A stretch of DNA of 64,000 nucleotides from Elusimicrobia bacterium GWF2_62_30 (GTDB lineage Bacteria > Elusimicrobiota > Elusimicrobia > Elusimicrobiales > UBA9959), in the NCBI GenBank assembly GCA_001799995.1, contig MGUK01000039.1, positions 1-64,000 on the forward strand, given 5' to 3'. This document shows positions 17,421-19,720 of the stretch, in pieces. The first letter of the stretch is position 1; every line of letters starts with the position of its first letter. A model generated the notes under the pieces. That model was not told where the DNA came from. It saw only the letters and a list, made by a program, of their open reading frames with translations, and did no database searches. Both the position numbers and the translations under genes were made by a program.

Positions 17421-18158
17421 ATGATAATAAAACCTTACGGCGACACATCCAACGACGGGGCGGTACAGCTTTCCTTCACGCTGCCCGTCAAGAACTGCGG
17501 CAGGGCTAAAGAAGCCGCCAAGCTCTACGTGCAGAAGCTGGGCTTCCGCAAAGTGGACGTGGTGCACGCCGCGCCCCTTTCCGACGAGTTCACCTTCTTC
17601 GTGGCCTACGGCAAGACCGAGGTGGGCATAGACTACGACAAGGTGGAATACGCCGAGGCCGTGGACAAGTACATGTCCATGGACGAGGTGAACGACTTCA
17701 TAAAGACGCATTTCAAGCGCAAGATCGTCATCGTCGGCGCCTGCACCGGCACCGACGCCCATACCGTGGGCATCGACGCCATCATGAACATGAAGGGCTA
17801 CAACCACCACTTCGGCCTGGAGCGCTACCCCATGATAGAGGCCCTGAACATGGGGTCCCAGGTGCCTAACGAGAAGATCCTGGCCAAAGCCAAAGAGCTC
17901 AAGGCCGACGCCGTGCTGGTGTCGCAGATAGTGACCCAGAAGGACGTGCACATCAAGAACCTCACAGAGCTGATAGAGCTGGCCGAGGCCGAGAAGGTGC
18001 GCGGCAAGATGCTGCTGGTGATGGGCGGCCCGCGCGTCAACAACAAGCTGGCCAAGGAGCTGGGCTACGACGCCGGCTTCGGCACCGGCACCTACGCCGA
18101 GCACGTGGCAACCTTCGTAGTAAAGAAACTGTACGACAGGATGACGACCGCGAAATAG
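17421..18158 (+). CDS. kamE: Lysine 5,6-aminomutase beta subunit (B12/PLP binding)
   Basis: Cobalamin motif GACTGTDAHTVGIDAIMNMKG; MVKPYGDTxNDG-like N-terminus. Confidence 0.93.
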   Translation: MIIKPYGDTSNDGAVQLSFTLPVKNCGRAKEAAKLYVQKLGFRKVDVVHAAPLSDEFTFFVAYGKTEVGIDYDKVEYAEAVDKYMSMDEVNDFIKTHFKRKIVIVGACTGTDAHTVGIDAIMNMKGYNHHFGLERYPMIEALNMGSQVPNEKILAKAKELKADAVLVSQIVTQKDVHIKNLTELIELAEAEKVRGKMLLVMGGPRVNNKLAKELGYDAGFGTGTYAEHVATFVVKKLYDRMTTAK

Positions 18159-18170
18159 CTTCGGTATCCG

Positions 18171-18298
18171 GAGCCGGACACGTGGTCCGGAACGCAAACC
18201 GCGCTCGGCACACCGTGCCTCGCTCATCCTCCGGCCTCGGCGCTATGCAAGCCTCGGCCTACGGAAGGGTTTGCTAACCCGGACCACATGCCCGGCTC
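18171..18298. repeat. Intergenic structured element, copy A (terminal inverted repeats, internal hairpin)
   Basis: GAGCCGGACACGTGGTCCGGAACGCAAACC at the left end pairs with GGGTTTGCTAACCCGGACCACATGCCCGGCTC at the right; internal GGCACACCGTGCC hairpin. Confidence 0.75.
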
Positions 18299-18312
18299 AG
18301 AAGCCTCAGGGT

Positions 18313-18433
18313 GACCGGTGTGTTGGTTCGGAGGGCGTCACGGACCGAAGCCGCTTGCGTAGCGCGGCGAGGGAGTGGCGAGCGGCGCGCACGGTGTGCG
18401 CGACCGCGTGCCCGATGGGCCAACATACCGGTC
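18313..18433. repeat. Intergenic structured element, copy B, related to copy A in opposite orientation
   Basis: Ends GACCGGTGTGTTGG and CCAACATACCGGTC are inverted repeats; core CTTGCGTAGCGC...GAGCGG...GCACGGTGTGC matches the reverse complement of copy A (CTTGCATAGCGC...GAGCGA...GCACGGTGTGC). Confidence 0.72.
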
Positions 18434-18475
18434 GCCCGCATGATATAGTGGTTAATAAGAATAAGGAGCGAACAA

Positions 18476-19720
18476 ATGGCTGAACATCTTAAACTGGACA
18501 ATTCGGACAGGCTTTATAAGGAAGCGCAGGAACTGATACCCGGCGGCATGATGGGCATACGCAGGCCCTACAACTTCGTCCCCGGCGAATACCCCATCTT
18601 CTTCGACTCCGCCAAGGGCGGCAAGGTCACCGACGCCGACGGCAACGAGTACATCGACATGCTCTGCGCCTACGGCCCCATCATCATCGGCCACCGCGAG
18701 CGCGAGATAGACGCCGCCGTCATCAAGCAGATCAAGGAAAAAGGCTTCTGCATGTCCATCGTGCAGGAGATCCAGAACACCCTGGCGAAAAAGGTCATCT
18801 CCCTGGTGCCCTCCGCCGAGAAAGTGGTTTTCGCCAAGACCGGCTCCGACGCCACCACGCTCGCCACCCGCATAGCGCGCAGCTTCACCGGCAAGACCAA
18901 GATCATCCGCTGCGGCTACCACGGCTGGCACGACTGGTGCGTGGAGAACAAGGGCGGCGTGCTCCCCAAAGCTTACGAGGACACCCTGGAATTCGAATAC
19001 AACGACCTGCAGGGCCTGGAAGACCTGTTCAAAAAGTATCCCTCCGAAGTGGCCGGCATCATAATCACCCCGCTGGGACATCCCAACGCGCACGAAGTGG
19101 AAATGCCCAAGGCGGGCTTCCTGGAAGGCGTCAGGAAGCTGGCCGAACAGTACGGCGCCGTGCTCGTCTTCGACGAGATCCGCACGGGCTTCCGCGTCAG
19201 CCTGGGCGGCGCGCAGAAGTTCTTCGGCGTCACGCCGCACATGTCCGTGTTCGGCAAGGCCATGGCCAACGGCTACGAGATAAGCATGGTGGCCGGCCGC
19301 AAAGACATAATGGACGTGCTGATAAGCAAAGCCTTCGTCAGCTCCACCTACTTCAACAACACCCTGGCCATGGTGGCCTCGCTCAAGACCATCGAGCTGT
19401 TGGAGCGCGACAACATGCTCGACGTTATCGCCAAGCGCGGCCAGGCCTTCTGCAACAAGGTCCGCAGGCATGTGAAGGCCAGCGGGCTGGCCGTCAAGTT
19501 CACCGGCGAACCGTGGATGCCCTACATCACCTTCGACAAGGACGAGACCGGCGCCTACAAGAAGAACCGCGTAAAGTTCTACACCGAGCTTATCCGCCGC
19601 AAGGTGTTCCTGCAGCCTTATCACCACGGCTATGTGGCCTACAGGCATTCTTCCCGGGACCTTGCCTACGCCGCCGACATGATAGCGGAGTCGCTCGCAG
19701 AAGTTAAGAAGGCGGCCTGA
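18476..19720 (+). CDS. kat: Class III aminotransferase, probable 3-aminobutyryl-CoA aminotransferase
   Basis: GSA-aminomutase-like class III PLP fold (ELIPGGMMGIRRPYNFVPGEYPIFF, LVFDEIRTGFR, FGKAMANGYEIS); sits directly after the lysine fermentation genes. Confidence 0.7.
   Translation: MAEHLKLDNSDRLYKEAQELIPGGMMGIRRPYNFVPGEYPIFFDSAKGGKVTDADGNEYIDMLCAYGPIIIGHREREIDAAVIKQIKEKGFCMSIVQEIQNTLAKKVISLVPSAEKVVFAKTGSDATTLATRIARSFTGKTKIIRCGYHGWHDWCVENKGGVLPKAYEDTLEFEYNDLQGLEDLFKKYPSEVAGIIITPLGHPNAHEVEMPKAGFLEGVRKLAEQYGAVLVFDEIRTGFRVSLGGAQKFFGVTPHMSVFGKAMANGYEISMVAGRKDIMDVLISKAFVSSTYFNNTLAMVASLKTIELLERDNMLDVIAKRGQAFCNKVRRHVKASGLAVKFTGEPWMPYITFDKDETGAYKKNRVKFYTELIRRKVFLQPYHHGYVAYRHSSRDLAYAADMIAESLAEVKKAA

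Follow-up and report, generated by a model that had tools for sequence, protein, structure and literature searches.

A Family of Intergenic Palindromes With Uniform Cores and Variable, Complementary Arms in Elusimicrobia

The two hairpin elements located between a kamE-like gene and an aminotransferase gene of Elusimicrobia bacterium GWF2_62_30 are real, and they are members of one dispersed repeat family whose elements are palindromic, non-coding, intergenic and about 125 nt long. The reading that we prefer, with a probability of roughly 0.58, is that these are old REP/BIME-like palindromes, the arms of which would have been rewritten by replication template switching while their cores would have been homogenized by gene conversion. 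Here, the window designates the whole stretch of DNA that was analyzed, i.e., 64,000 nucleotides (contig MGUK01000039.1, positions 1 to 64,000).

Results

Copy A (18171..18298) belongs to the A-type subfamily. It has its sense on the minus strand and runs antisense to the kam operon; the element is defined by its arms, its fold and a covariance-model match (C39:18175-18296(-), 125 bits, E 1.1e-23). The outer arm of the stem P1, which varies among copies, covers 20 nt (18171..18190) and is 90% complementary to its partner arm (18279..18298), the mismatches being G.U on the minus strand. According to the fold, hairpin P3 (18207..18219, minus strand) reads GGCACGGTGTGCC on the sense strand and contains an invariant CACGGTGTG core, and hairpin P2 (18228..18268, minus strand) presents tandem G.A mismatches around CTTGCATAGCGC, with a helix 3 that covaries. 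Copy B (18309..18437), of the B-type subfamily, has its sense on the plus strand, divergent to copy A, and is defined in the same way by arms, fold and covariance-model match (C39:18309-18435(+), E 1.2e-7). Terminal repeats had been described for this copy from the sequence alone; they do exist, but the proposed 14 bp was too short, as the P1 arms (18309..18326 and 18420..18437) pair over 18 nt with 89% complementarity. Hairpins P2 (GCCGCTTGCGTAGCGCGGC, 18350..18368) and P3 (GCGGCGCGCACGGTGTGCGCGACCGC, 18382..18407) of copy B were both placed on the plus strand by the fold. The upstream neighbor of the pair is the kamE-like gene (17421..18158, plus strand, Pfam OAM_dimer and B12-binding), and the downstream neighbor is a class-III aminotransferase gene (18476..19720, plus strand, Pfam Aminotran_3).

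The sequence-only reading had seen in these two copies related, structured elements of opposite orientation, with a reverse-complemented A core that aligned with the B core. Our data bear this out: the cores align in opposite orientation through common blocks of 13 nt and 11 nt, the 11-nt block being the GCACGGTGTGC hairpin with 100% identity. Compared with shuffles, fold stability z was -5.8 (plus strand) and -7.0 (minus strand) for copy A, and -7.2 (plus strand) and -3.9 (minus strand) for copy B, with 0/200 shuffles equally stable; the arms, the matching cores and these z values of -3.9 to -7.2 confirm the elements.

BLAST detected 47 A-like and 43 B-like places in the genome of origin. A covariance model built from 18 copies gave 115 matches in this 2.9-Mb genome, corresponding to at least 103 distinct loci once 12 same-place matches on the opposite strand were subtracted. 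The same model revealed copies in 31/31 other genomes of the genus searched, a single match in a different genus of the family, and zero copies in 24 genomes from another family of the order. Across a sample of the phylum, 34/295 genomes were positive, all from one family and distributed over five genera (the genus of origin and four others). All genomes compared are Elusimicrobia metagenome-assembled genomes, in which repeats can be mis-joined. The element matches no known family in Rfam, the plasmid and phage sequences searched contained zero copies, and the literature searched for Elusimicrobia repeats or structured RNAs held nothing relevant. Further copies are thus clearly numerous in the genome of origin and in its relatives, and the observation that ends differ while cores match, made at first on copies A and B only, turned out to be correct genome-wide and to be the key property of the family. 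The phylum is little studied, and the libraries searched contain no description of this large repeat family.

The element folds as a three-way junction, in which the long outer stem P1 opens into two conserved hairpins. P2 is centered on CTTGCRTAGCGC, flanked in copy A by the tandem G.A mismatches, and P3 consists of CACGGTGTG with a three-base loop. In A-type copies, a core of about 88 nt is nearly identical, while almost every copy has different 15-25 bp arms around it; these arms nevertheless remain complementary. An alignment of 61 distinct sequences from many genomes, which was fitted to the structure and hence leans towards it, showed 98.2% of paired cells, vs. 77.7% after shuffling and at most 55% after sliding. 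In the same alignment, double changes were present in 23/27 pairs, with 275 doubly changed cells vs. 57.6 in shuffles. Chance as the source of this pairing is untenable, given the effect size and the slide control. Using RNAalifold on alignments that were not fitted to the structure, double changes were found in 14/29 pairs and, for the B-type alignment, in 24/40 pairs. The covariation that had been proposed for examination in the family is therefore strong and exceeds both shuffle and slide controls, as for a conserved folded element.

Some copies depart from the common architecture. An extra hairpin beside P2 (GAGCGAAGCGAC or TTCGCGAAGCGAA) makes a core length variant of L054 and L059, in the genome of origin, and of L253, in genome G062. 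Furthermore, a longer common 3' extension GACYGGGCATCTYGCGG, together with ACYGGA on the 5' side, is carried by L002, L016, L022, L033, L037, L038, L044, and L059; these copies possibly represent an older full-length form or a common flanking repeat.

The way in which arms change was followed in sister genomes, at seven correctly matched orthologous copies representing 460 pairs (L214/L213 and L240/L218, matched at the wrong place, were left out). Mirrored double substitutions numbered 19 in these pairs, including 14 transversions, whereas the per-site rate predicts about 3 double changes of any kind. Single changes in the same pairs kept pairing in 19 cases and broke it in 18. One orthologous couple (L221/L225) accumulates five mirrored changes within 17 bp. 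In the broad alignment, 12 outer P1 pairs comprise 176 doubly changed cells with about 2% of G.U cells, and the arms mostly change from one Watson-Crick pair to another. Mirrored arm changes with such scarce G.U are not predicted by stepwise RNA compensation and are predicted by replication template switching.

The cores behave differently from the arms. At shared sites, their identity to the ortholog is about 70-92%, and most cores have at least ten paralogs with 97-100% identity. For 32/35 sampled cores, the nearest relative was found in the same genome, which is also the genome that supplies most sequences. Judging from this similarity, within-genome uniformity of cores would fit gene conversion or core replacement. 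One core has also been inverted: L239 (genome G061) and L255 (its sister G062) have collinear flanks and opposite core orientation, and they alone share one P3 variant among the copies examined in these two genomes. This is the one clear inversion in about 10 sister-species sites; where more distant species differ in orientation, a flip or a replacement may be the cause.

Discussion

We propose that most copies would be old residents of fixed intergenic sites, and that their original spread would have required a trans-acting enzyme. Their arms would since have been altered by DNA-replication template switching between inverted repeats: when one arm serves as the template for the other, both sides acquire a mutation together, and the same process would be able to invert the segment between the arms. 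Such a process has been documented, as template switching homogenizes inverted-repeat arms and inverts spacers (PMC8604942), and creates and maintains hairpins (PMC8794818). Gene conversion between copies, or core replacement, would keep the cores of one genome alike, as their similarity suggests. The effect on neighbor genes is the least certain step of this proposal; it would probably arise from a strong hairpin located at the 3' ends of mRNAs, as proposed for REPs, which would either protect the upstream message or insulate. Three observations temper this reading. The fact that only one clear inversion separates the sister species counts against template switching, recent insertion of new copies beside or replacing old ones would look similar to gene conversion, and template switching alone does not predict the purine-purine bias of mismatches on the sense strand (see below), which points to selection acting on one folded strand.

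The alternative that survives best is an active MITE, i.e., a non-autonomous transposon mobilized by a transposase recognizing the hairpin arms, in which core identity would reflect recent bursts and the arms would be acquired or altered at insertion. High copy number, cores that are 97-100% identical and a size of about 125 bp with terminal inverted repeats argue for it, but the arms are not conserved among copies, and therefore offer no common terminal recognition sequence. The history of the sites also speaks for long residence. For 7/18 best-scoring copies of other species, the genome of origin has a filled site with orthologous flanks on both sides (P 4e-6 to 9e-4 at an intergenic occupancy of 4-9.5% and 0.012 at 15%, these occupancies being our own estimates), and about 13/16 checked sites are common to the sister genomes G061 and G062. 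A single presence/absence case is known, a site filled in G062 and devoid of insert in G061 (L217/L223). Although it favors mobility, it could also stem from a deletion, and CGGCTCCGAAC, which may belong to an element end, is retained. The same comparison had first suggested an "inverted target duplication" of a fixed 7 bp, which was dropped, as CGAAC, an end common to many copies, persists in the empty allele.

Two signs of transposition had been suggested for search. The longest common word at element flanks was 3.33 vs. 3.27 in shuffles, and no target-site duplication was recovered beyond a 2-nt excess, which corresponds to a GA/GA context. Concerning a transposase with matching ends, the search was made for the Y1 family. 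The genome of origin possesses two Y1 transposase genes, and both are flanked by other palindromes; moreover, Y1 transposases are absent from five element-rich genomes (G003, G015, G023, G025, and G031, with 51, 46, 24, 49, and 41 copies, respectively). Mobilization by RAYT was rejected on these two grounds. The two Y1_Tnp genes (L061 on C70 and L062 on C94) carry their own repeats, GGGACAGTATAC and GGGGTCAGACCC, and a related GGGGTCAGGTC palindrome is present in G062 (L265) where G061 has the element (L228). The hypothesis of a REP- or MITE-like pair put forward in the sequence-only reading thus stands with regard to dispersed intergenic palindromes arranged in inverted pairs, and fails with regard to target duplication and RAYT dependence. 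Overall, we regard an active MITE as unlikely. Another arrangement was observed in G062 (L220/L227, C91:48451-49995), where two divergent copies are separated by 1.3 kb containing ORFs of 269 and 115 aa; the corresponding site in the sister G061 has a single copy (L226).

A cis-acting structured RNA, whose transcript hairpin would stabilize the upstream mRNA or separate the expression of operon genes, and whose compensatory changes would reflect selection on RNA pairing, appears improbable. It has in its favor the strong covariation, the very stable folds, purine-purine mismatches tolerated on one strand, and the position of the elements relative to genes. For 85 copies with usable flanks (genes being called by a simple purpose-made gene finder), flanking genes were convergent in 29 cases, co-directional in 50 and divergent in 6, which shows that divergent regions are avoided, and the nearest gene end was a 3' end in 61 of the 85. 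However, among co-directional contexts the element was sense in 27 and antisense in 23, and its orientation differs between species at the same site. In addition, G.U, the usual intermediate of RNA compensation, is scarce in outer P1, most double changes are transversions, and no T-tract followed the arms in the copies read.

The junction between kamE and the aminotransferase gene (kat) is instructive in this respect. Nine relatives (L137, L138, L139, L145-L148, L150, and L210) have there only a short spacer with the ribosome-binding site and no hairpin, and copies with differing arms and in either orientation are found at L134, L140, L141, L142, L143, and L144. This argues against an RNA that separates kamE and kat expression, as had been suggested: although the fold is conserved, nine relatives lack the element at this junction, and where it occurs it can point either way relative to the operon. 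Occupants of the junction also differ between species, an observation that an active MITE would accommodate, since L135, L136, and L208 have a different palindrome at this place. The latter represents a second, unrelated family, in which the core CGTCCCGCAGGGACGGGGGAACCGCGCAACGGTTCCC is conserved and the complementary arms vary. Downstream of kamE, L133 presents about 1.8 kb of other sequence before the aminotransferase gene.

A further possibility is that the folded single strand of DNA itself is the substrate of an enzyme. Mismatches in the stems of the sense strand were purine-purine in 193 cases and pyrimidine-pyrimidine in 77, with A.G/G.A dominant. Counted per copy, 58 copies lean to purine-purine and 8 the other way, and a sign test overstates the significance as the copies are related. 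The bias persists whether elements are sense, antisense or convergent to genes. This points to a role of the folded sense strand, either ssDNA or its own RNA, that does not depend on the transcript of the neighboring gene. Pairing of copies is strict as well: among neighbors less than 250 bp apart, 13/14 pairs were divergent (<- ->) and none convergent (P = 1.6e-7 against 1/4), copies A and B of the window forming one such tight pair. The only non-divergent neighboring pair seen is held by a three-copy array (-, -, +) at G000:C58:31238-31693 (L006, L082). The bias, the divergent pairing and the one core flip would all suit an attC-like recombination substrate, in which the sense strand folds as ssDNA and a putative recombinase inserts, exchanges or flips cores. 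But no enzyme is linked to the element (the transposase search covering the Y1 family), there is no conserved end sequence, and template switching with gene conversion already accounts for the behavior of arms and cores; we thus hold this attC-like reading to be very improbable. Put in terms of a putative recombinase using the folded sense strand to flip and exchange cores and to copy them from one fixed site to another, the idea is quite improbable. If true, it would mean a genome-wide set of invertible, mutually homogenized DNA switches at gene ends.

Finally, insertion of the core into the loop of a hairpin that was already present, e.g., a terminator, giving each copy its own arms, would explain near-identical cores within unrelated yet complementary 15-25 bp arms, but it is scarcely credible, as the empty kamE-kat junctions hold no hairpin, the copies read show no T-tract after their arms, and arms at orthologous sites change gradually by mirrored substitutions.

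Under template switching combined with gene conversion, the reading that we retain, covariation, which is normally taken as proof of a functional RNA, is here better explained, at least partly, by a DNA replication process. Covariation in repeats should thus not be read as RNA function without caution. With up to about 100 copies per genome in dozens of species, the family would also permit direct counts of template-switch and core-inversion events.

Comparison with Known Systems

REP/BIME elements are hairpins of 20-40 bp, of the GTAG and CGTC super-families, with many intergenic copies, often as inverted dimers, and they sit mainly between co-directional and convergent genes (PMC3733652). 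The Elusimicrobia family is alike in being a high-copy intergenic palindrome (103 loci) at convergent and co-directional sites (29/50/6 for convergent, co-directional and divergent) with inverted grouping (13/14 pairs). It differs in its three-way junction of about 125 nt in place of a short hairpin, and in its ends, which are variable, with a subset GGA...GA(A/C), and in which no GTAG/CGTC tag was seen; in addition, it flanks no RAYT gene and its arms vary from copy to copy. Bacterial MITEs (ERIC, RUP, NEMIS, Nezha) measure 70-300 bp with 15-30 bp TIRs (PMC3733652). The family resembles them by a size within this range, by its terminal inverted repeats, and by being non-coding, intergenic and stably folded, but almost every copy has terminal repeats of its own, no target duplication was found and, for the Y1 family searched, no transposase is linked.

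Inverted repeats subject to template switching (PMC8604942; PMC8794818) share with the family the homogenization of arms, multi-base compensatory change and inversion of the spacer. The systems described in these two studies are single short repeats in yeast genes, on the one hand, and RNA genes, on the other. Here, by contrast, we deal with a family of about 100 copies having a structured spacer of roughly 90 nt. Integron attC sites are imperfect palindromes in which one folded strand matters, the ends are kept and the middle varies; their hallmarks are conserved RYYYAAC/GTTRRRY ends and a linked IntI. The present element, of comparable size, is likewise an imperfect palindrome of which one folded strand may matter, but the family does the reverse of attC, since it is the ends that vary between copies.

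Taken together, the family works like REP/BIME by position, copy number and inverted pairing, and resembles MITEs by size and terminal repeats. We filed it in neither class because the defining tests fail, namely the end tag and RAYT for the former, and conserved terminal repeats and target duplication for the latter. Compared with known bacterial REP elements, its shape and its way of evolving are unusual.
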